Of a stretch of DNA of 34,116 nt, positions 7,420 to 32,608 are shown one piece after another. The stretch's first letter is position 1. Every line of letters begins with the position of its first letter. Origin of the DNA: Polyangiaceae bacterium (GTDB taxonomy: Bacteria > Myxococcota_A > Polyangia > Polyangiales > Polyangiaceae); NCBI GenBank assembly GCA_013141295.1, contig JABFRG010000186.1:1-34116 (forward strand), in the 5' to 3' direction. A model generated the notes under the pieces. The model worked only from the letters and a program-made list of their open reading frames with translations. It ran no database searches and had not been told where the DNA came from. The position numbers and the translations under genes were made by a program.

Positions 7420-8889
7420 TCAGGTCCAGGCGCCGAAGGTGGCAACGCCCGCGAGGTAGCCGGGGAGCCAGGCGACGATGAAGAGCGGCGTGGTGCCATA
7501 GAGCTGCGATTCCTCGAAGCGGACGAAGGCGACCTGGGGTGAGGCGGCGCGGAGGAGCGCATCGGCCTTGGCGTACGCCGAGAGCGCGTGCTTCTCGTGG
7601 TACTCCTTGGGGCTCTTCCGCACGTCCTCGGAGTGCGCGTAGAAAAGGTTGTCGCTGATGCGGCGGCCTTGGCGGCTCGCCACCGGGCGCTCCACCAGGA
7701 GCTTCTCGTCGGGTCCCAGCGAGAGCGCGGCCCGGAGCGCCGCCTCCGAGGTGTCGGCCACCGGGGCGACGAAGGGCACGTAGGGCCAATCGGTATCGGT
7801 GGAGCAGTACGCGTGCCGGAGCGCTTTGGTGACGGAGGTGGCGAGCGCGTGCGCCGCCAATAGATCGTCGAGACGCTCGGCCAAAGGTCCGAGCTTGGTG
7901 CCTTCCGGAAAGCAGCCCCAGCTGGTGGCGACGAGCTTCAGGAAGGTGGGCTCGCTGGGGTAGTTCGCTGCGCGGACCTCGTTGCAGTCGAGGAAACCAC
8001 CCATGAGCGGCCGATCGATGGCGATGTCCCCCCGTTTGGCGGCGATGGCGTCGGTTTTCGAGAGATCGAGGGACGCGAGCAGCGCAGGCGTCAGGCGGTC
8101 GTCCTCCTGCTCTTCTTCTTCCTCCTCGTCGTCTTCTTCTTCTTCCTCTTCGTCGCCGTCGTCTTCTTCCTCTTGCTCTTCGTCGCCGTCTTCTTCCTCT
8201 TCTTCCTCCTCCTCTTCGGAGTCCACCATCAGTCCGATGAGGGTCTGCAGATTCTCGCTGCGGTCATCGATCTCTCCGAAGGCCTCGTCGATGGCGGCCA
8301 CGCGTTTGGGGCTGCTCTTTCGTAGCGCCAGAACTGCACCGAAGCGCGCGCCCAGAGTGGCGTTCTCGTCGCGCACGATCTTCTCGAGATCGGCTGCCTT
8401 CTGGGGGAGAGCCGGGAGCGACGTTGCGTTCGGTCCTTCGGACTCGCTCTCGAGAACCGCAATGCCGTCGCGCTCTCCGGGGAAGAGCTGGACCAGCACG
8501 TGGGCCGCGGAGAGCTTGGTGACGCGCGCGATGTAGGTGCCGGCAGCTACGTCCAGGGGCCACGAATCACCGCGGTAGCCATCCACCAGCACCGGGGAGG
8601 CGCCCAGCTCCAGCGGCGCCTCGACCACCCATTCGGATCCGGCGGCGACGTGCGAGGGGCGCTGCTCGGCGACCTCGACGGTGACGCGCGCGAACTTCGC
8701 GTCGACCACCACCCCGAGCATCTGCGCGGCGACGCCCACCCTACGGTCTTCCCACACGTCGTTCTCGAACAGATCGTTCCAGCGCTCGGGCGCGTCCAGA
8801 TCGCCGAGCAGGCGTTGCCGGGTTCCGACGAACACCAGTGACATGGCGACCGTCTGACCGATATCGAGCACAACACGCATCCGAGGCAT
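7420..8889 (-). CDS. Uncharacterised protein with long internal acidic low-complexity tract
   Basis: 489-aa ORF; EEEEEEEEEDGDEEQEEEDDGDEEEEEEDDEEEEEEQEDD linker between two ordered-looking regions. Confidence 0.75.
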   Translation of the reverse strand: MPRMRVVLDIGQTVAMSLVFVGTRQRLLGDLDAPERWNDLFENDVWEDRRVGVAAQMLGVVVDAKFARVTVEVAEQRPSHVAAGSEWVVEAPLELGASPVLVDGYRGDSWPLDVAAGTYIARVTKLSAAHVLVQLFPGERDGIAVLESESEGPNATSLPALPQKAADLEKIVRDENATLGARFGAVLALRKSSPKRVAAIDEAFGEIDDRSENLQTLIGLMVDSEEEEEEEEEDGDEEQEEEDDGDEEEEEEDDEEEEEEQEDDRLTPALLASLDLSKTDAIAAKRGDIAIDRPLMGGFLDCNEVRAANYPSEPTFLKLVATSWGCFPEGTKLGPLAERLDDLLAAHALATSVTKALRHAYCSTDTDWPYVPFVAPVADTSEAALRAALSLGPDEKLLVERPVASRQGRRISDNLFYAHSEDVRKSPKEYHEKHALSAYAKADALLRAASPQVAFVRFEESQLYGTTPLFIVAWLPGYLAGVATFGAWT

Positions 8890-8990: not shown

Positions 8991-9010
8991 GTGCGCTATC
9001 GCGAGCGCAC
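8991..9010. promoter_or_regulatory. 20-bp dyad GTGCGCT-ATCGCG-AGCGCAC, candidate operator
   Basis: Perfect 7-bp arms in the 8889/9046 divergent intergenic region; same arms, spacer length and central CG as two other sites. Confidence 0.65.
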
Positions 9011-19741: not shown

Positions 19742-20287
19742 TCACCGCGGATCGGGGAGCGTCGATTCCTCGGGGGATCCACCCAGGAACACGAAGCGAT
19801 CCTTCTCCGGTTTGGCGTAGGCGTGGCCGTTGGTCGGATGGCCGTCGAAGGGGCCGGCCTTCACCAGGTGCCTGCCCGCTTCCCAGCTGAGCTGAAGACC
19901 GTGCTCGGGCTCCCACGCGACCTCGGCCTCCATTTGCACGTATGCGGTGTCGATGGGCGCGTACTTGCCCGCTTCGAGCATCCCGAAAAAGATGCTGCGG
20001 GGCCGAACGAGCGTCCACACGGTGTCGAGCGTCGGCAGCGCGCCGCCCGGCAGGTCCTCGAGGATCTCTTCACCGACCGCGTCGACGGTCGACGCACAGT
20101 AGGCCACGAGGTGGCGCCCGTCGGCGAGGCGCTCGTCCGGGGTTCGTGCGAGGAAGCTTCGAAGCGCCGGCAACGCCAGGTCGACAGGGATGTCGGCTGG
20201 CTCCACCCGAACCCGCGCGCCATCCAAGTAGGGAATCGCGAGGCTTCCGCCCTTTCGAAGAAGCTCGAGCAGCTCGTGGTCGCTCAA
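19742..20287 (-). CDS. Uncharacterised protein, translationally coupled to the upstream lipoprotein
   Basis: TTG start 20287 overlaps the TGA of the upstream gene (TTGA); LSDHELLELLRKGGSLAIPYLDGARVRVEPADIPVDLALPALRSFLARTP. Confidence 0.6.
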   Translation of the reverse strand: MSDHELLELLRKGGSLAIPYLDGARVRVEPADIPVDLALPALRSFLARTPDERLADGRHLVAYCASTVDAVGEEILEDLPGGALPTLDTVWTLVRPRSIFFGMLEAGKYAPIDTAYVQMEAEVAWEPEHGLQLSWEAGRHLVKAGPFDGHPTNGHAYAKPEKDRFVFLGGSPEESTLPDPR

Positions 20288-21063
20288 CGCACCACCACGT
20301 CGGTGCTCGCAGGAAGGACGATCCACTCCGGCTTGGACCAGGTGCGGAGGCTGGTCTGCACCCGATACGTTCCCGGCGTGAGCGGCTTGGTCGCGATGGG
20401 AATCATCACGTCGGTGCCCATGCAGCTCGCCAGGCAATCTTGCGGGCGCGCAGGAGGCCACGCCACCCGACTGGCTTGCCACGTCACCGCGCCTTCGATG
20501 ACGCCGCCCGGCAGGAGCGCCACCACGACGCCGCGCGGGATGGTCACGTGCGAGCACGTCATCCCCATGCACTTGGCGTTCGGCGTGATGGGCATCGGAC
20601 CGGCGGGCGGTGCGATGGTGACGTTCTTATCGGTGGTCACCACGAGGCTCTCGGAAGCGGGGAGCTCGGTGCGAATCGACAGGGTGTGATCGGATACGTT
20701 CGTGATGCGAACGTCGAGGACGAGGGGACCCCCAGGCGAGACGGTGGGCGTGCGCGGGGCGAAGGTGACGCGCACGTCGGAGGCTCGTGGCGCCGCGCCG
20801 TCGAGGCATTGATGCTCCGCGTCGTCCGCGGATCGCGTGAGGCTCGCCTTCTTGACCGCGCACGAGGATGACGCGGCAGCGTCCGCCGGAGCATCGACCG
20901 TGGCGGAGGCATCGACGATCTCCGGCGCCGGGCTCACGACGCCGGCGTCCAGCGGTGCCGCGACCTCGGTGGGCTTCGGTGGCGGCGCTCCCCCGCACGC
21001 CGCGCCGGCCGAAAGCGCGATGAGAGCAAGGAGGGCGCGAGGGTTCGGTGCGAAGGCGAGCAT
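20284..21063 (-). CDS. Predicted lipoprotein, unknown function
   Basis: MLAFAPNPRALLALIALSAGAACGGAPPPK lipobox. Confidence 0.8.
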   Translation of the reverse strand: MLAFAPNPRALLALIALSAGAACGGAPPPKPTEVAAPLDAGVVSPAPEIVDASATVDAPADAAASSSCAVKKASLTRSADDAEHQCLDGAAPRASDVRVTFAPRTPTVSPGGPLVLDVRITNVSDHTLSIRTELPASESLVVTTDKNVTIAPPAGPMPITPNAKCMGMTCSHVTIPRGVVVALLPGGVIEGAVTWQASRVAWPPARPQDCLASCMGTDVMIPIATKPLTPGTYRVQTSLRTWSKPEWIVLPASTDVVVR

Positions 21064-21128: not shown

Positions 21129-21148
21129 GTGCGCTTGCGGCAGCGCAC
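21129..21148. promoter_or_regulatory. 20-bp dyad GTGCGCT-TGCGGC-AGCGCAC, candidate operator
   Basis: Perfect 7-bp arms near the midpoint of the 21063/21215 divergent intergenic region. Confidence 0.65.
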
Positions 21149-21214: not shown

Positions 21215-22072
21215 ATGGCTTCTACGCACCGTACGCGATCGCTCTCCCTGCTGGTCGGGGCCGTTGGCCTGCTCTTCGCCTGTTCTCAGGGAGCCTCGGA
21301 GACGCCCAGCTCTCCGACGAACGCCGACGGCGGCGTCACCTCGGAGGAGGCGGGCGCCGCCACGGTGGACTTCACGTTCCGCGTGACGGGTATGCGCGCC
21401 TACTTCCAATTGATGGGCGAGTCCGAGGTCGAGGCGATGCTGGCGGTGGCGGAGACCGAGTCCGGCAAGCGCGTCTTCTGGAAAGCGAGCACCATTCGCT
21501 CGAGCGTCGACGTCGTCGAGTTCTCGGCGCCCGGTCTCCTGCAGAAGGGTGTATCCTACAGCATTGGTGCCGCGGTCGGAGGCTACGGCTACCTGGAGAT
21601 ACCGCCGGTCACGGACCAGGTCGTCGTGGAGATGACGCAGGAAGAATACCGGACCAAGCTGGGCAACGAGTACAAGCGGGCCTACGACCTGCTCACCACG
21701 CCGCTCAAGCTCAAGCCCGGCACCTACGAAGGTCGCGTCGCCGCAACCGGCACGCAAATCCAATACGTGGTGGGGTCCGAAGGGTACTTGAGCCCGGTCC
21801 ACCTCATCTACGGATGCACCGGCAGCACGTCCACATGCGGGGGCCCTGCGGGGCAGTCCATCGAGCCGTGCTCGCGATCGCTGGTGCGTGGGGACACGGA
21901 GCAGGCGCATATCGGCACCTCCGTGAGCTCGGGCCTCAGCCTGGTGGGCGACATTCGGGCCGACACCGACAAGCTCGTTTTCACCGGGAAGGTCGCCAAG
22001 ACGAATTGCTGTTCCGAGGCACTCAACCTCGACCTTGTGCGCATCTCGAACAACACCCAGGGCTGCAAGTAG
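21215..22072 (+). CDS. Predicted lipoprotein, unknown function
   Basis: MASTHRTRSLSLLVGAVGLLFACSQG lipobox. Confidence 0.8.
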   Translation: MASTHRTRSLSLLVGAVGLLFACSQGASETPSSPTNADGGVTSEEAGAATVDFTFRVTGMRAYFQLMGESEVEAMLAVAETESGKRVFWKASTIRSSVDVVEFSAPGLLQKGVSYSIGAAVGGYGYLEIPPVTDQVVVEMTQEEYRTKLGNEYKRAYDLLTTPLKLKPGTYEGRVAATGTQIQYVVGSEGYLSPVHLIYGCTGSTSTCGGPAGQSIEPCSRSLVRGDTEQAHIGTSVSSGLSLVGDIRADTDKLVFTGKVAKTNCCSEALNLDLVRISNNTQGCK

Positions 22073-23148: not shown

Positions 23149-26100
23149 CTACTCGCGCACCATGGGCTCGCGCTGGCGGGCGAATACTGCGATGAGCGCA
23201 GCGCCGTCGGTGGTGACGTTCTCGATGCGGAGGCCGAAGCCGGGGACCAGGCTGGCGCCTTCGTCGTCGACGAGATCCTGGCGGAAGAGCACGGTGCCTT
23301 CCACGTCGCAGTGGGCGCCGCCGGGGAAGGCGAGGCGCGCGGTGGCGCGGGCGCCGAGGGGCGGGAGCTTCTCGTAGGTGGCCACGAAGAGGCCGCCGTG
23401 GGCGATGACGTCGTTGCCCTCGAAGCCGCGGAAGAAGTTGCTGGGGCTGCCGGCGTCGAGGGCGACCTCGTAGGAGAGGCTGCTGCCAGAGGGGGCCCGG
23501 AGCTTTTGCTCCATACGCTCGAGGATGCGTGCCAGATCTTCGATGCGCGCGGCGACCTCGTGGCCTCCGCCGCCTTGCGCCGGCGGCAGCTGGCTCGGGC
23601 GCTTGGCCAACGCGGTGATGACCTGCGAGAGCAGGGCGGTGTGCTCGGCCACCACCGAGGTGAGCTCGGCGGCGCCGCCGCTCTCCAGGTGCAGGTCCAC
23701 CCGCGGGGCCTGCATGCGAGAGAGTGTGGACTGCACCTTGTCGAGGAGGCCGCTCCAGTCGGGGGTGCGCGCTTCGTCGTCGAGGCCGCGCTTGAGGGTC
23801 TCGCCGATGCCCTGCAGCTGCGAGTCGAGGCCGCTCAGGGTGCCGGTGACGCGGGCGACGGGATCGTCGTCCTTGCCGCCCATGCGCTTCTTCCGCAGGA
23901 ACTCTTCCTTGATGGCCTTCCAGCGCTGCTGCTGCTCGGGGGTGATGCGCCCGCGCATCTCGGCGAGCTTGAGGACGTTCTGCTCGGCGCTGGTGGTCAG
24001 CGTCTGCGATTCGCCCTTGTAGTGGTCGTCGATGAGCCGCAGGAGCTCTTCCTGGTTCATGGCCGGCACCACTTTTTCCGCCAGCTTGTTCATGTTGCGG
24101 TAGCTGCCCTGGAGCTTGAACGGCGGCTCGGTGCGGTAGCTGTCGTCTTGCGAGGCCGAGGCGATGTACTCGCGATTCACCTGGAGCAGGGTGGCCTGCA
24201 CGGTGAAGAGGCGCTGGAACACCGCGGTGAAGTCTTCCACCTCGGCGCCGGAGTAGCCGTGCGATAGGTCCGTGAGCGGCAGCTCTTCGCCCTGGGCCAG
24301 GCGAATGAGCTTGTGCACGTCTTTCGGCTCGCGGCCGGCGAGAGGGGCCAGGATGGAGCTCGAGGTGAGGGCGTTCTCCAGGTACGAGAGCGCGAAGATG
24401 TCTTCCTTGCCTCCGAGGATGTCTCCGAGATTGTAGGTGTCGGCGCGATTGGCCAGCATGTCGGGAATCCGGAATCGCTCGCCGGACTCGGTATACGGAT
24501 TACCGGCCATGACGATGCAGAACTTCTTGCCGCGAAGATCGTAGGTGCGGGTCTTGCCCTTCCACACGCCCTCGATGCGCCGCTGGGCGTCGCACAGGGA
24601 GATGAACTTCTGAAGGAGCTCGGCGCTGGTATGCTGGATATCGTCCAGATACAGCATCACGTTGTTGCCCATTTCGAGGGCGAGGCTGATCTTCTCCACT
24701 TCCTGGCGCGCGGTGGCGTTCTTGGCCTCGGCCGGGTCGAGGGAGGTGACGTCGTGGCCCAGGGCCGGGCCGTTGACCTTCATGAACACCAGGCCGAGCT
24801 TCGAAGCCACGTACTCCATGAGCGTGGTCTTGCCGTAGCCGGGGGGCGAGATGAGCAGCAGCATGCCCATCAAGTCGGTGCGCTTCTTCTCGGAGACGTC
24901 GCCGATCTGCTTGGCCAAGTTGGCGCCGATGAGCGGCAGATACACCTCGTCGATGAGGCGATTGCGAACGAACGAGGTGAGCACCCGCGGCGCGAACTCC
25001 GAGATGCGCAGGCGCGCCTTTTCGCGCTCCAGAATCTCGGTGCGCAGCTTGCGATAGGCGCGGAAGCGCGGGAGCTGTTCGCCGATGAAGGCGTCGACCC
25101 GGGGCAAGAGCTCGTCGAGCGAGACCTCGAGCTTGCGGTCCTCGATGCGCGGGTGCCGCCCCAGCAGGCCCGTCACCTGCACCCGGGTGACCGCCGCGCT
25201 CTCGTCGCGATCCACGCGGCCTTCGGTGGTCCACACCACCGCGGCTTCCAGCAGGAAGGGGCGCAGGGCTGCGCGCTCCGGTTTCTTTAGAAAGCCTTCG
25301 AGGTAGGCTCGGGCGATGGGCAACGCCTCGTGCGGGCCGAGGGCGGCGAGATCGGCCTCCACCTCGCTCTGGCTCCCCAGGGCGGTGAGCTCCCGGCGAA
25401 GTGCGCCCACCAGCTCCACCGCTTCGCGGGTGGTGGTGAAGCGCAGGGGCTCCCGCGACAGCTCCAGGATCAAGTACTCGGCAGCAGCGCGCGCGGCGGC
25501 CGGGCTCATCGCCAAGTCGCTCCCGATGGTCCGCGCGGCCATGGCCTCGCCGAGGGTACCTGTAAGATGCACGAGATGGTCGCTGTCGCCCAGCTCCTCG
25601 CGGATGCGCACGGCGGCGCGGGCCTTGCGGCGAAGGCTGGTTTGATCGGCTTCTGCCAGCGCGAGCCAGTGGAGCGTGGCCTGGGCCCGGGCGTCCGGTG
25701 AGAAGCGCAGGAGGCCCACCGTCTCGCGGAGCGAGAGCAGCCTTTCCAGGACGAGCGAGGCGTCGAAGTCGTGGACCCCGCGCTCGTAGCCCTCGTCGAT
25801 GCGATCGCGGGCGAACTCCCGAACGGCGTCCAGGAGGCCTTCGGTCTTGGTGCCGGCGAGCTTGAGCGTCTCGAAGGTGAGCCCTTGGCGCTTGGCCTCG
25901 GCAGCGGCGAAGATCTGCGTGGCGAGGAACTCGCCCCGGTACACCGCGTTCGACTCCGACGGCAGCGCTTGATCCCAAAGGTCCTTGGCCGCGGCGAGGT
26001 CGGCGTCGTCCAAGGTCTCGTAGAAGTCGGTGCCCGTGAGGTGCAGCATCATGGTCCCCTCGCGGGGAATGAGCGTCAGCTCCATGGGCTGGGTGTTCAC

Positions 26101-28692
26101 GCTGAAGCGGTGCGCGCCGAAGCGAATGGCACCTTCGGCGAAGAGATCGGTCTTGTCGCGAAGCGCGCGCTGCGAATCCTGCCTAGCGGACTTCAGGCGT
26201 GAGGCGATCTCGTCGGCGCGGACGGTGTCGCCCATGCGCCCGAGCTCCTTCTGCAGCTCCTGCACCTTCTGGATGCTGGGATCGGAGGCGAAGTAGGCGT
26301 TCAGCTCGTCCTGGGTGGCGAAGGTCTGCGCCCGCCGCACCACACCGGCCAGTACGCGTTCTGCGGCCTGCGCGAGGTTGCCGGCGCGCTTCTGGCGCTC
26401 GTCGGTGAGCAGCTGCCTACGCGCGGAGATGGCGTCTTGCACTTCCTGGCGCTTGTCGGCGAGCTCCACCGCGAACTCGTCGAACTGGGCGAACTTGCCT
26501 TCCAGCTCCTCGAGCGAGAGGAGCAGCTTGGAGAGCTCTTGGTCGCAGCGCTCGGGGGTGTCGCACACCGCCAGCGCGCCAGCCACCGCTTGGCCGAAGA
26601 GCTTGAACTGTACACCGAACTCGGCCTTGCCCTCCTTCGACGAGAGCTCCTTCTTGCGCGCCTGGAAGGTGGCGCGGGCGCGGTTCAACTGTGCGAAGGC
26701 GGCGCTCACGCCTTCGAGGATCTTGGTGCGCTCGGTGACGTCGTCGATGGCCAGCGCCGAGACCACGTCGCCCAGCAGCGTGAGCCCGGTCTGCACCGTG
26801 TCGAGATCCTTCTCGAAGGGCAAGAGCTCGCTGGCCTTCACCACCTTCTCGATGGCCACGATGCTGCCGTCGAGGCGCGTCACCAAATCGGCGAAGGCGT
26901 CGCGGGCCAAAAGGAACTTCACGCAGGCGGCGCTCACCGCGTCGAAGAGCGCGACCGCCTTTTGCTCCAGCGCGTCGATGCGCGGCGGCTCCACGCCACG
27001 GAGCTCGCGCAGGGTCACCAGCTCGCCGCGAAAGCGCCGCAGATCGGTGAGCGCCCCGAGGAAGGCGTCGATGCTGCCCAGGCCGTCCGGCGCCAGGCGC
27101 TTTTCGAGCTCCGCGAAGGTGGTCTCCGACTTGGCAGTTTGCTCCGCGGCGCGCTTGCGAATCTCCGCGAGCTTCTCGAACTCGTCGATGATGAGCTCGG
27201 AGGTCTTCTTCAGCGTCTGCAGCGTGGCCAGCAGGTTTCCCGCTTCGTCGTTGCCGAGCCAGTAGTAGGCGTCGATGAGGCGCCCGATGCCGCGCACCAC
27301 GTCTTCGTAGGTCTGGCGTGAAGGGTCTTCCTTGCTGGCCAGGCGCCGGAGGGCCAGCGCGTCGCTGATGCCCCGCACCAAATCGGCATTGCCCACCTTG
27401 GCCAGGTACGAGCCGTCGGTCTTGGCGCCGGCGGCGAACTCGGCGGTGGTGAAGGGCGTGCGCCACACCTGGATCGGGTGGATGCGCGTAGCCTCGGCGG
27501 AGGCCCGGAAGATGGCCAGCGTCCCGTCGGGAAAGAGGCTGTAGCCGTTGCACCGCATGGGCGAGTCGGCCTCTTTGCGGATGAGGTTGTACGGCATGAT
27601 GACGTACTGCCCGTCGTGGTGGCGGTAGAACACGTAGGCCACGTCTTCGCCGTTGGGCGAGGGGATGACCCGCTCGAACTCCATGTCGGCGATGTCGCCG
27701 TCGAAGACCTTGCGCTCGCCGCTGTCGAGGTACACGCCGCCCGGGAACACGATGCCGTGCCCCTCCGGAAGCCCCAGGCAGGCCTGGCCGATGGCGTCGA
27801 TGCGGGTGACGCGCTTGTTGCGTGTATCGTACACAAGGTAGCGATAGGCTTGTTCGCGGAAGGGGCGAATCTTCAGGAGGATGAGCGAGCCCACCTTGGC
27901 ATACGCGATGTCGGCGTCGTCCAGGGTCTGGTTGGGATCGTCTACCGGCTCGCGGTAGATGCCTTGGCCCTCCTTGGTGTTGTTCTCGACCTTGATGGTG
28001 AGATCGCCACCCAGGGTCTCGACGAACACCTCGTTGAGCACCGAGATGTGGGGGAACTTGCCGGCCACCTGGTTCTCGCGGCCGGTGGCGGTCCAGGCGA
28101 AATCGTGGGAGCGGGGCGGGGCGTAGTCCTCGTCGCCGCGCGCATCCATGTACGAGACGCCACCCTTGGCGTCGATGGCCCAGCGGAAGACCTTCACGTC
28201 CTTCACGCTGGCGCCCACTTGCACGCTGCACAGCAGGCGGGTCTCGGTGCGCCGCAGCTGCGAGAGCTTGGCGTCCTTCATGTAGCGAAAGACGTCCTTG
28301 AACTCCTTCACGAAGGTGGCGTCGGAGAGGAAGGCGAGGGGACCGTCGGGCGGCACCTCGGCGATGTCGTAGCCCTCGGCCGTTTTGCCGAAGCGATGGA
28401 AGGTGAGGACGTCGGAGACCTTCACTTCTTCCTTGAGGCCCATGAAGACCTCGAAGCCGAAGAGGAGATGCCCCGCGACGCTGACCATGTCGCGGGGAAT
28501 GCAGTTGTTCTCGGTGCGGGCCCGCTCGTTGGCGACGAGGCCGAGCTCGGTGCCCCCGAATACCGTCTTGCGCTTCTGGTTCAGCGCCTCGGCCTTGGTG
28601 CCGATCTCTGCCGCTTGCTCGAGGAGGCGCCTACGAATGACCTCGTAGTTGCCGCCCTCGAGCGTCTCCTTGGGCTGGGCCTGGTCCGACAT
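23149..28692 (-). CDS. Giant AAA+ ATPase ('DNA repair ATPase'-type annotation) with coiled coils and C-terminal PilZ-like domain
   Basis: Walker A LLLISPPGYGKTTLMEYVA, Walker B VMLYLDDIQ; long coiled coils; C-terminal GGLFVATYEKLPPLGARATARLAFPGGAHCDVEGTVLFRQD...GFGLRIENV resembles TIGR02266/PilZ. Confidence 0.9.
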   Translation of the reverse strand: MSDQAQPKETLEGGNYEVIRRRLLEQAAEIGTKAEALNQKRKTVFGGTELGLVANERARTENNCIPRDMVSVAGHLLFGFEVFMGLKEEVKVSDVLTFHRFGKTAEGYDIAEVPPDGPLAFLSDATFVKEFKDVFRYMKDAKLSQLRRTETRLLCSVQVGASVKDVKVFRWAIDAKGGVSYMDARGDEDYAPPRSHDFAWTATGRENQVAGKFPHISVLNEVFVETLGGDLTIKVENNTKEGQGIYREPVDDPNQTLDDADIAYAKVGSLILLKIRPFREQAYRYLVYDTRNKRVTRIDAIGQACLGLPEGHGIVFPGGVYLDSGERKVFDGDIADMEFERVIPSPNGEDVAYVFYRHHDGQYVIMPYNLIRKEADSPMRCNGYSLFPDGTLAIFRASAEATRIHPIQVWRTPFTTAEFAAGAKTDGSYLAKVGNADLVRGISDALALRRLASKEDPSRQTYEDVVRGIGRLIDAYYWLGNDEAGNLLATLQTLKKTSELIIDEFEKLAEIRKRAAEQTAKSETTFAELEKRLAPDGLGSIDAFLGALTDLRRFRGELVTLRELRGVEPPRIDALEQKAVALFDAVSAACVKFLLARDAFADLVTRLDGSIVAIEKVVKASELLPFEKDLDTVQTGLTLLGDVVSALAIDDVTERTKILEGVSAAFAQLNRARATFQARKKELSSKEGKAEFGVQFKLFGQAVAGALAVCDTPERCDQELSKLLLSLEELEGKFAQFDEFAVELADKRQEVQDAISARRQLLTDERQKRAGNLAQAAERVLAGVVRRAQTFATQDELNAYFASDPSIQKVQELQKELGRMGDTVRADEIASRLKSARQDSQRALRDKTDLFAEGAIRFGAHRFSVNTQPMELTLIPREGTMMLHLTGTDFYETLDDADLAAAKDLWDQALPSESNAVYRGEFLATQIFAAAEAKRQGLTFETLKLAGTKTEGLLDAVREFARDRIDEGYERGVHDFDASLVLERLLSLRETVGLLRFSPDARAQATLHWLALAEADQTSLRRKARAAVRIREELGDSDHLVHLTGTLGEAMAARTIGSDLAMSPAAARAAAEYLILELSREPLRFTTTREAVELVGALRRELTALGSQSEVEADLAALGPHEALPIARAYLEGFLKKPERAALRPFLLEAAVVWTTEGRVDRDESAAVTRVQVTGLLGRHPRIEDRKLEVSLDELLPRVDAFIGEQLPRFRAYRKLRTEILEREKARLRISEFAPRVLTSFVRNRLIDEVYLPLIGANLAKQIGDVSEKKRTDLMGMLLLISPPGYGKTTLMEYVASKLGLVFMKVNGPALGHDVTSLDPAEAKNATARQEVEKISLALEMGNNVMLYLDDIQHTSAELLQKFISLCDAQRRIEGVWKGKTRTYDLRGKKFCIVMAGNPYTESGERFRIPDMLANRADTYNLGDILGGKEDIFALSYLENALTSSSILAPLAGREPKDVHKLIRLAQGEELPLTDLSHGYSGAEVEDFTAVFQRLFTVQATLLQVNREYIASASQDDSYRTEPPFKLQGSYRNMNKLAEKVVPAMNQEELLRLIDDHYKGESQTLTTSAEQNVLKLAEMRGRITPEQQQRWKAIKEEFLRKKRMGGKDDDPVARVTGTLSGLDSQLQGIGETLKRGLDDEARTPDWSGLLDKVQSTLSRMQAPRVDLHLESGGAAELTSVVAEHTALLSQVITALAKRPSQLPPAQGGGGHEVAARIEDLARILERMEQKLRAPSGSSLSYEVALDAGSPSNFFRGFEGNDVIAHGGLFVATYEKLPPLGARATARLAFPGGAHCDVEGTVLFRQDLVDDEGASLVPGFGLRIENVTTDGAALIAVFARQREPMVRE

Positions 28693-28696
28693 CGAA

Positions 28697-30703
28697 TTAC
28701 TTGGTGGGCGTGCCGGCGCTCAGGAGCTGCTGCAGGCGCGCCTTCTGGGCGTCGTCGGCGCGGCTCATGAACTGCGAGAGCAGGCCGCTGATGGCGGGGT
28801 CGCCCGAGGCCTTACCCAGCACGTCTTGCGCGAGCGTGCGCACGGTCTCGCTGTGGTCCATGACGCCCTCGATGGACTGACCCACCGAGACGGCCTTGAT
28901 GAAGCGGTCGAAGAACTGCCCGTCGCCGCCCACGATGTTGATCTTGGCGTGGCTGAAGGCTTCCTTCATGACCTCGGCCTGGGCGGTGGCGATGTCTTTC
29001 CGGTTCTTGATGGACTCGAGCTCCACCACCTTCTCTTTGTCGAGCCGCAGGCGGAACTCTTCGTGGCCGCGACCGGCCTCGTCGAGCGCCTTCATGGCCG
29101 AGGCCTTCTCGGCGATGCCGGCGGCTTCTGCCAGGAGCTTCTGGCGGGTGGCCGATGCGTCGGCGGTGCCACGCTTCTCGATGGCGGCGGCTTCGGCTTC
29201 CTTCACGCGCGCAGCAGAGAGGCCCTTTTGCTCGTCGCCGGCGGCTTCTGCCAGGAGCTTCTCGCGCACCACGTTGGCGGCGGCGCGACCCAGCTTCTCG
29301 GTGGCGACGGCGTCGGCCTCGCGCACCTTCACGTTGGCCAGGCCTTCGGCAGCAGCCTCGGCTTGCTTGCCTTCGGCCAGGCGAATCTTGGCGCGCGCCA
29401 CCTTGTCGGCGGTGTCGAGCTCGGCGTCGGCGGTGACGATCTTCTCCCGGGCCTTGAACTTGGCGGCCTCTTCGCTGGCCTCGGCGGCCTTGATCTGCTT
29501 CACGAGCGAGCCCTGGGCCTCGGCCTCGGCGGCGATGCGAATGACGTCCTTCTCGCGGGTGGCTTGGGAGTTGGCGCGCAGATCCTTGATGGCCTCTTCC
29601 TCGGTGGCGACGGTCTTGTCGACGGCGATGCGTGCGCGGATGGCGTCGGCGATCTCCTTCTTCTGGAGCTCGACTTCCTTTTCCTTGGCGATGGTGCCGA
29701 GGGTCACTTCGCGTTCGCGGTTGATGACCTCGAGCTGACGCGCCTTCTCGACGCGCTCGGTCTCCACGGCGATTTCCCGCTCGCGGTTTTTCTCGGCCAC
29801 CGCGATGCCGCGGGCCCGCGCCTGGTCGGCGATGCTCGATTCCTCGTCGTTCTTGTGCTGCACGAGGAGGGTCTTCTTGTGCTCGTCGGAGGCGATGCGC
29901 TGGGCCTCGTTCTGCTCGCGCGACTTGGCGACGGCGATCTCGCGTTCCTTCTTGGCCTCGGCCTCGGCCCGGCGCTGCTCGAAGCGGAAGACCGCTTCGT
30001 CGGCGGTGAGGTTCTGGCTGCCGATCTCCATGCGCTCCTTCTGCCGGAGCTCGTTGGTCTGCACGTTCTGGATGACCGTGAGATCGGTGATCTTGCGGAT
30101 ACCGTCGGCGTCCATGATGTTGTTGGGGTCGAGCGACGAGAGCGGCGTCTGCTCGAGGAAGTCGATGGCGGCGTCGTCGAGGATGAAGCCGTTGAGGTCG
30201 CGACCGATGACCTTGATGATCTGGTCCTTGAACTCCTCGCGCATCTTGTAGAGGTCTTCGAAGTTGAAGTGCTTGCCCACGGTCTTCAGCGCTTCGGAGA
30301 ACTTGGCGCTGAAGAGCTCGCGCAAGGCCACCGCGTCGGACGCCCGAGCGCAGCCCACCGATTGCGCCACCTTGAGCACGTCTTCCTGGGTCTTGTTCAC
30401 CCGGATGAAGAAGCTCACGTTGATGTCCGCACGGATGTTGTCCTTGCAGATGAGCCCCTCCTTTCCGCGGCGGTCGATCTCGACCATCTTCACCGACATG
30501 TCCATGAGCTCGGCGCGGTTGACGATGGGATAGACCACCGCACCGGTGAAGGTGACGACCGGCTCCGAGCGCATCGTGTTGACGATGAGGGCGCGGCCCT
30601 GATCCACCTGCCGATAGAACCTTGCCACCATGATCAGCGTACCGAACACGATGAGCACCGCGATGACGATGAGGATGATGAGAAGGGGAAGATTCTCCGC
30701 CAT
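28697..30703 (-). CDS. SPFH/flotillin-family protein (YqiK-like)
   Basis: N-terminal TM LLIILIVIAVLIVFGTLIMVARFYRQVDQGRALIVNTM; SPFH region; long A/E/K-rich coiled coil. Confidence 0.93.
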   Translation of the reverse strand: MAENLPLLIILIVIAVLIVFGTLIMVARFYRQVDQGRALIVNTMRSEPVVTFTGAVVYPIVNRAELMDMSVKMVEIDRRGKEGLICKDNIRADINVSFFIRVNKTQEDVLKVAQSVGCARASDAVALRELFSAKFSEALKTVGKHFNFEDLYKMREEFKDQIIKVIGRDLNGFILDDAAIDFLEQTPLSSLDPNNIMDADGIRKITDLTVIQNVQTNELRQKERMEIGSQNLTADEAVFRFEQRRAEAEAKKEREIAVAKSREQNEAQRIASDEHKKTLLVQHKNDEESSIADQARARGIAVAEKNREREIAVETERVEKARQLEVINREREVTLGTIAKEKEVELQKKEIADAIRARIAVDKTVATEEEAIKDLRANSQATREKDVIRIAAEAEAQGSLVKQIKAAEASEEAAKFKAREKIVTADAELDTADKVARAKIRLAEGKQAEAAAEGLANVKVREADAVATEKLGRAAANVVREKLLAEAAGDEQKGLSAARVKEAEAAAIEKRGTADASATRQKLLAEAAGIAEKASAMKALDEAGRGHEEFRLRLDKEKVVELESIKNRKDIATAQAEVMKEAFSHAKINIVGGDGQFFDRFIKAVSVGQSIEGVMDHSETVRTLAQDVLGKASGDPAISGLLSQFMSRADDAQKARLQQLLSAGTPTK

Positions 30704-30852: not shown

Positions 30853-31554
30853 ATGCGGACCATGCTCCGCACGCGCTTCGCGCTCCCGCTCCTCGTTCTC
30901 TCCGTCGGCTGCCGCAAGAGCGTGGGCGACGCCGAGCCCGGCACCGTACCCTCGGTGGGCACCGTCGCCTCCGCCGCGACGGCCGCGACCGCTGCCGGCA
31001 CCGCGCGCGAGAAGGCCCCCCCGCCGGCGCTCGGGGTGCTGTACGCGCAGGTGAACGGCAAATGCATCGTCCCGCCCACCGACACCCAGTCGCCGGTGCC
31101 GCCGGAGCCGGCTCGGCCGGGTGCAACCAACGCCTGCGAGAAAGATGCAGAGTGCACCAAGGGAAAGAACCCCCGCTGCCGCAGCGTCTACATCGGGCAC
31201 GGAATGTCGCACAAGGAGTGCACCGCCGACGCCTGCGAGAAGGACGCCGACTGCGCCACCGGCACACGGTGCTTCTGCGGCGGCGCCCACGATGGTCGCA
31301 ACGCCTGCATCGCCTTCAACTGCCGGAGCAACGCCGACTGCGAGAAGGGCTACGTCTGTGGCCTCGCCGGGATGTCCGGCGGGCACCTCCACCCGCCCGC
31401 GGGCTCGTTCTGCCGCACCTCGCGCGACACCTGCGTCGACGACGGCGACTGCGGGACCGGCAACACACCCGGAGCACCCTCCAAGGTCTGTGACTACGTG
31501 GCCGCCAGCAATCGCTTCGAGTGCGTGGCGACGCACTATCCGCCGCCGGGCTGA
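30853..31554 (+). CDS. Cys-rich lipoprotein with four C-x4-DxDC-type repeats
   Basis: LLVLSVGC lipobox; CEKDAEC, CEKDADC, CRSNADC, CVDDGDC. Confidence 0.8.
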   Translation: MRTMLRTRFALPLLVLSVGCRKSVGDAEPGTVPSVGTVASAATAATAAGTAREKAPPPALGVLYAQVNGKCIVPPTDTQSPVPPEPARPGATNACEKDAECTKGKNPRCRSVYIGHGMSHKECTADACEKDADCATGTRCFCGGAHDGRNACIAFNCRSNADCEKGYVCGLAGMSGGHLHPPAGSFCRTSRDTCVDDGDCGTGNTPGAPSKVCDYVAASNRFECVATHYPPPG

Positions 31555-31573: not shown

Positions 31574-31593
31574 GTGCGCTCACGAAAGCGCAC
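31574..31593. promoter_or_regulatory. 20-bp dyad GTGCGCT-CACGAA-AGCGCAC (arms extend to 9 bp), candidate operator or RNA hairpin
   Basis: CGGTGCGCT CACGAA AGCGCACCG, 20 bp after the 31554 stop, at the presumed VWA start. Confidence 0.6.
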
Positions 31594-32608
31594 CGGACGC
31601 GGCAAAAATAGGCCCTTCGGCGCAATTACGCGGTGGCGCGCGCGGGCCCTCGGTCTCGCCCTGTTCGCCTCCCTCGCGGTCGTCTCCGTCGCGTGCGGAG
31701 CATCCGGTACCGCCACCTTCGAGGATGGCGCCGACGGGGGGAGCAGCGGCAGCAGCGGCAGCAGCGGTGGCGGCTTCGGTGTTCCCGGCGGTGACGGCGG
31801 TGGCGCCGGCGACGGCGGGGCCGGCTGCAACAAGATGGATATCCTGTTCGTGGTCGACAACTCCGGGAGCATGTCCGAGGAGCAGACCAACCTCGCTGCC
31901 AACTTTCCCAAGTTCGTGAGCGTGCTCGACGCCACCACCGGGCCCAACGGCCCCCTCGACTATCGCGTCGCCGTCACCACCACCGGCAAGTCGTACAAGA
32001 TCAAAGGGCCCTTCGGCATCACCGTGGACGACGTGAAGGGCGACGACGGTGCCTTCCGGAACAACTGCGGCGGTGCCAAGCGCTGGCTCGACCGCGGCGA
32101 GGCGGCGGCCTCCTTCGGCTGCCGGGCCACCGTGGGCACCGACGGCCCCTCCGAAGAGATGCCGCTGCAGTGCATGAAGATGGCGCTCACCGATCGCGTG
32201 GCCGACGGCACCAACGCCGGCTTCTTGCGCAAGGACGCGCTCCTCGCCATCGTGTTCCTCACCGACGAGGACGACTGCTCCTACGCCGCCAAGGACCTCG
32301 ACGAAGGCTTCGGCGACGTGTGCAGCGACCTCAAGGGCGCGGAGAAACCGCAGGACTACGTGACCATGCTGGACGGGCTCACCGGCGATCGCGCCCGCTG
32401 GGCCACCGCGGTCATCGCCGGCAAATCCAGCTGTACCTCGACGTTCGGCTCCGCGGCAGAGGCCAAGCGCCTCGGCGACTTCGTCACCGCCACCGGCAAG
32501 AACGCCGTGTTCAGCAGCATCTGCGACGGCGATCTCTCGAAGAGCCTCAAGGAGGCCATCGACAAGTTCGGTACCGCCTGCCGCGATCTGCCGCCGCCCC
32601 CGCGCTGA
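31574..32608 (+). CDS. VWA-domain lipoprotein
   Basis: MIDAS-like DILFVVDNSGSMSEEQ; lipobox VVSVAC; the GTG start at 31574 is uncertain because it coincides with a repeated dyad. Confidence 0.8.
   Translation: MRSRKRTGRGKNRPFGAITRWRARALGLALFASLAVVSVACGASGTATFEDGADGGSSGSSGSSGGGFGVPGGDGGGAGDGGAGCNKMDILFVVDNSGSMSEEQTNLAANFPKFVSVLDATTGPNGPLDYRVAVTTTGKSYKIKGPFGITVDDVKGDDGAFRNNCGGAKRWLDRGEAAASFGCRATVGTDGPSEEMPLQCMKMALTDRVADGTNAGFLRKDALLAIVFLTDEDDCSYAAKDLDEGFGDVCSDLKGAEKPQDYVTMLDGLTGDRARWATAVIAGKSSCTSTFGSAAEAKRLGDFVTATGKNAVFSSICDGDLSKSLKEAIDKFGTACRDLPPPPR

Follow-up and report, generated by a model that had tools for sequence, protein, structure and literature searches.

The window analysed here, a 34,116-nucleotide stretch of DNA (contig C753), belongs to the genome of a Polyangiaceae bacterium that we searched as a whole (G000; 9.19 Mb in 1283 contigs). 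It contains three copies of a 20-bp palindrome, in which the arms GTGCGCT and AGCGCAC are separated by 6 bp (Table 1). These copies had been pointed out in a sequence-only reading of the window, and we found all three at the same positions, with no mismatch. The distances that this reading gave for site 1 are correct as well, both to the WGR start (ATG 9046) and to the divergent ATG at 8889, which is 101 bp away. Site 3 is not cleanly intergenic: it covers the GTG at 31574, which is the likely start codon of the next gene. We rejected the idea that the window is a contaminating contig. Its tetranucleotide distance to the other contigs of the genome is 0.065, as compared to a mean of 0.060 and a maximum of 0.077 for random poolings and 0.177 for relatives. 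Because 0.065 falls within the range of the random poolings, the composition of the window is not foreign to this genome.

Table 1. Palindromic sites and genes in the window.
Feature	Position	Strand	Remarks
Palindromic site 1, GTGCGCTATCGCGAGCGCAC	8991..9010		Divergent gap between the 486-aa gene (-) and the WGR-DUF4240 gene (+); profile score 19.2 bits
Palindromic site 2, GTGCGCTTGCGGCAGCGCAC	21129..21148		Divergent gap between two predicted lipoprotein genes; 66 and 67 bp to their starts; 18.1 bits
Palindromic site 3, GTGCGCTCACGAAAGCGCAC	31574..31593		20 bp past the stop of the gene ending at 31554; overlaps GTG 31574; 18.6 bits
Gene downstream of site 1	7420..8880	-	486 aa from ATG 8880, 489 aa from ATG 8889; no Pfam match
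WGR + DUF4240 protein, 266 aa	9046..9846	+	Start 35 bp after site 1; one of the 5 WGR genes of the genome
Predicted lipoprotein (..LSAGAACGG..), 259 aa, downstream of site 2	20284..21063	-	No Pfam match
Predicted lipoprotein (..VGLLFACSQG..), 285 aa, downstream of site 2	21215..22072	+	No Pfam match
1847-aa protein	23149..28692	-	DUF3686 (described as DNA-repair ATPase), DUF7902 and AAA domain
668-aa protein, beside the DUF3686 protein	28697..30703	-	No Pfam match; N-terminus looks flotillin-like
Predicted lipoprotein-like gene, stop codon before site 3	30853..31554	+	No Pfam match
Predicted lipoprotein (..VVSVACGASG..)	31574..32608	+	von Willebrand A match is weak (under the Pfam cut-off); site 3 contains GTG 31574

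The palindrome recurs across the genome more often than expected by chance, as had been proposed. The pattern GTGCGCTN6AGCGCAC has 8 exact matches, 33 matches with one mismatch, and 282 with up to two mismatches. As a control, we arranged the same halves as a direct repeat, which has the same composition but no symmetry. Counting both strands, this control had 0 exact matches, 15 with one mismatch, and 305 with up to two mismatches, which corresponds to an expectation for the palindrome of 0, ~7.5, and ~152. Subtracting the control leaves ~33 strong sites above chance, or perhaps ~130 if degenerate ones are included. The narrower 16-base pattern, with a central CG, is present four times in the 9.19-Mb genome, and three of these are in the window; with its letters reversed, it is absent from the genome. 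The crowding of sites in the window, which had been described as very unlikely by chance, is only modestly surprising: if there are 32-75 sites genome-wide, then three sites in a given 34-kb stretch have P ~0.0003-0.003, and there are ~270 such stretches.

The spacing of the arms is fixed. Perfect arms with a spacer of 0-30 bp are present at 17 places in the genome, and in 8 of these the spacer is 6 bp. None have a spacer of 0-5 or 7-11 bp, so all 8 copies with a spacer of 0-11 bp have exactly 6. The spacer itself is weakly biased, and the central CG that had been taken as part of the motif is present in just 4 of the 8 exact copies. If intergenic sites are aligned along with their reverse complements, T2, G3, C4, G5, C6, and T7 are nearly invariant and G1 is conserved in ~80%, but these sites were selected by the pattern, so the conservation of the arms is partly built in. 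There is a weak preference at C8 and T9. The information is confined to the 20 bp and the flanks carry none. The implied consensus (GTGCGCTCTCGAGAGCGCAC) has an exact occurrence on contig C921. Intergenic sites with one mismatch are changed mainly at the outer base (1/20), and their GCGC core is almost invariant, whereas coding matches with one mismatch are changed more often at the inner bases.

To place the sites relative to genes, we used gene calls from a codon-usage model on the fetched loci, in which start codons are approximate. The sequence-only reading had suggested looking for enrichment in intergenic DNA, and this is what we see. The sites that have no more than one mismatch number 41; 27 of them are intergenic and another 3 overlap the edge of a gene (30/41), while the fetched loci are ~14% noncoding (86% coding). 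The matches are not spread through coding DNA, and the strong copies do not number in the hundreds. We also built a profile from the intergenic sites and used it to find further sites. Outside the profile set, 19 profile-found sites could be placed, and 10-12 of these are intergenic (12 were called as such, and two of those are probably coding on closer look). Some of the weak profile sites are due to chance, because those at loci L056 and L063 seem to lie inside signal-peptide coding sequence (if the upstream start is taken). Some sites are repeated: locus L019 has a second, adjacent site, and contig C399 has three. Those on contig C399 (locus L058, 1200-4300) score 15.6, 15.3, and 11.5 bits and lie within ~1.1 kb. 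In L019 (296-3029), the two adjacent sites are between tandem lipoprotein genes with similar N-termini (..VACGTSGSGF..), and the weaker site spans the stop codon.

All 30 of the intergenic and edge sites are upstream of at least one gene, at distances that range from overlapping the start to ~250 bp. For 28 sites there are genes on both sides, and of these gaps 12 are divergent, 16 are co-directional, and none are convergent. Convergent gaps are rare here in any case: the 56 site-free gaps comprise 19 divergent, 34 co-directional, and 3 convergent. We did not find a preference for divergent promoters (12/28 placed sites versus 19/56 site-free gaps). Sites in divergent gaps are mostly 15 to 230 bp from the starts, and co-directional sites are up to ~250 bp from the next start. 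We did not find a -10/-35 element that keeps a constant distance to the site, or a common AT peak or TANNNT position.

In co-directional gaps, the sites are close to the stop codon of the upstream gene. Where the upstream gene is called with confidence, 11 of 12 co-directional sites lie 1-14 bp after the stop. If sites were placed uniformly in these same gaps, then 1.8 would be expected within 15 bp, and none of 200,000 simulations reached 11.

The genes next to the sites include two IgGFc-binding domain proteins, two RCC1-repeat proteins, a serpin pair, M4 and trypsin-like peptidases, and three protein kinases. Many of the adjoining proteins have no Pfam match, and the genes downstream of the sites do not point to a single pathway. 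The serpin genes (locus L047; E = 1e-95 and 2e-96) are adjacent, the second is apparently a lipoprotein, and the site is 5 bp behind the first. Downstream of the pattern sites, there is a modest excess of lipoproteins, at about twice the expected share: 15 of the 32 nearest downstream genes are lipoproteins, as compared to 14 of 63 other genes that have a comparable gap upstream (P = 0.014). How large the effect is depends on the lipobox rule, since a different rule, which was the first that we used, gave P = 0.0004. Lipoprotein-like genes make up a high share of the fetched loci in any case (23/115, or about a fifth), and this weakens the case for a strong lipoprotein regulon. Together with the size and GC content of the genome, this abundance of lipoproteins points to a myxobacterium. 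Two of the genome's five WGR genes have a site upstream, 36 and 49 bp before the start; the second of these is on contig C931 (L044/L092). This coincidence was noticed after the fact. We did not identify a regulator gene: the adjoining genes that have DNA-binding domains (a sigma-70 region 4 protein and a sigma-54 activator) are isolated cases.

We saw little sign of the palindrome in other genomes. In contrast to the 8 exact copies here, each of 376 other genomes of the phylum has at most two. The shorter core TGCGCTN6AGCGCA is present 22 times in this genome and 0-13 times per genome in 107 others of the family. In four of the relatives with higher core counts, 15 of the 16 fetched copies are inside genes, so these are most likely chance matches. 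As judged from these genome searches, the palindrome signal is confined to this lineage, which is known here from one genome.

We propose that the palindrome is probably the operator of a dimeric, sequence-specific DNA-binding regulator that is peculiar to this lineage. Conservation in the arms is of the letters and not of the pairing, and there is no covariation in the spacer, which favors recognition as DNA; and the constant spacer favors a rigid dimer. Together, these make the operator of a putative dimeric regulator the best reading. The 6-bp spacing would then follow from the two-fold symmetry of the dimer, with each subunit recognizing one half-site, (G)TGCGCT(C). Such a protein would bind at some 30 to 100 places, in most cases upstream of a gene, and would control transcription there. 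Many of these genes encode lipoproteins or other exported or eukaryote-like proteins, and their promoters would be switched as a group. A transcription-factor operator is also what the sequence-only reading had suggested, and the 6-bp spacing, the intergenic placement, and the lack of pairing covariation make it the best reading still, without the central CG that had been part of it and without a preference for divergent promoters.

A plain promoter operator does not predict the adjacency to stop codons (11/12 versus 1.8 expected). It is possible that the operator is the outermost of the downstream gene's regulatory elements, and that useless DNA between it and the stop codon has been deleted. 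Alternatively, the protein, once bound, may block read-through as well. At locus L036, what looks like a separate stem with a T tail comes between the site and the next gene, and this speaks against the site being an operator for the downstream gene there.

The adjacency to stop codons would be expected if the palindrome acted as RNA, with a transcribed 7-bp stem and 6-nt loop that ends, stabilizes, or insulates transcripts after stop codons and that sits in 5' leaders in the divergent cases. Taken by themselves, the strands of the site also fold well (-8 to -24 kcal/mol). We nevertheless consider such an RNA element unlikely. Co-directional sites depart from the consensus pairs 12 times: 9 of these changes break the pair, 2 give G-U (about as often as by chance), and 1 is compensatory (Watson-Crick). 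Nor did we find covariation between the spacer pairs (32 paired, versus 31.8 in shuffles) or at pair 1/20, although the numbers in these pairing tests are small and the pattern search restricts double changes. Below 12 nt, the spacer is always 6, while the other post-stop hairpins of this genome have varied loops, and for this reason we also rejected generic hairpins whose loops vary. The stem is rarely followed at once by a T-run: among the listed sites, more than three Ts directly follow the arm only at L025 (TTTTT), which is in a divergent gap, and L031 (TTTT). Finally, equally exact copies are present between divergent genes. Near the palindromic sites at L028 and L045, there are also terminator-like stems that have TTTGCGGGCGTTTTT in common, which may be a recurrent type of terminator in this genome.

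Another reading would combine both roles: a single protein-bound palindrome, right behind the stop codon of the preceding gene or between divergent promoters, would mark the upstream edge of transcription units and would both prevent read-through and control the promoter that follows. This would apply to a set of genes rich in surface lipoproteins, and to this lineage only. We consider this quite unlikely.

We think it very unlikely that the palindrome is a dispersed repeat of the REP kind, that is, a short extragenic palindrome that spread by copying and has no fixed regulatory role. The palindrome does have the length (~20 bp), the extragenic location, and the closeness to stop codons that would suit a REP, but the GTAG and CGTC tags are not enriched in the 12-bp flanks of our sites (2/32 and 4/32, versus 1.2 and 4.6 expected). 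The spacers and flanks vary between copies, unlike copies of one master, the strong copies number in the tens rather than the hundreds, and divergent gaps are not avoided. We found no RAYT transposase among the neighboring genes that we scanned.

The palindrome could also be bound by a chromosome-organizing or boundary protein at the edges of transcription units, as a roadblock or an insulator, instead of by a classical promoter regulator. This would account for both the post-stop and the divergent positions and would explain why the distance to the downstream start is not fixed, but such a protein would not be expected to have only ~30-100 sites in 9.2 Mb or to be linked to particular types of genes (WGR, lipoproteins), and we view it as very doubtful. 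Lastly, the idea that a GC-rich palindrome simply recurs by chance in a genome rich in GC has practically no prospect of being correct. The matches in the window were noticed after the fact, and relatives have the core pattern 0-13 times per genome, inside genes in those examined, but the direct-repeat, spacing, and placement controls refute it, and the enrichment, fixed spacing, and intergenic placement hold genome-wide and were reproduced on sites outside the profile set.

Overall, the palindrome is real, lineage-specific, and of a regulatory type, as judged from its sequence and placement; its sequence is new, but its kind is ordinary. Without any data beyond the sequence, some 30 to 100 promoters of a lipoprotein-rich lineage can be grouped into a candidate regulon, and the exact bait sequence for finding the regulator is now at hand. 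The tight placement after stop codons is the one positional oddity, and it could bear on how neighboring transcription units are separated in GC-rich genomes. We searched a library of papers by sequence string and by topic and did not find a described operator with the half-sites GTGCGCT-N6-AGCGCAC (the listed string matches were judged to be unrelated by title).

Among known systems, REPs are found chiefly downstream of coding regions, in many cases near a stop codon or overlapping it, and favor co-directional and convergent gaps over divergent ones (PMC3733652). The palindrome is likewise short, extragenic, and often near or overlapping stop codons, but it lacks the GTAG/CGTC tag and a conserved spacer or flank, it does not avoid divergent gaps, and it has fewer copies. 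It resembles intrinsic terminators in being a GC-rich inverted repeat that comes soon after the stop codon in 11 of 12 co-directional cases; it differs from them in that it usually has no T-run after the stem, its 6-nt spacer is invariant, and it is also found between divergent genes. The operators of dimeric helix-turn-helix regulators consist of two inverted half-sites of 6-7 bp with a fixed spacer, lie upstream of scattered genes, and are sometimes repeated. The palindrome has these same features (inverted half-sites, a fixed spacer, scattered genes, and some repeats) and differs from such operators in that many of its copies abut stop codons.
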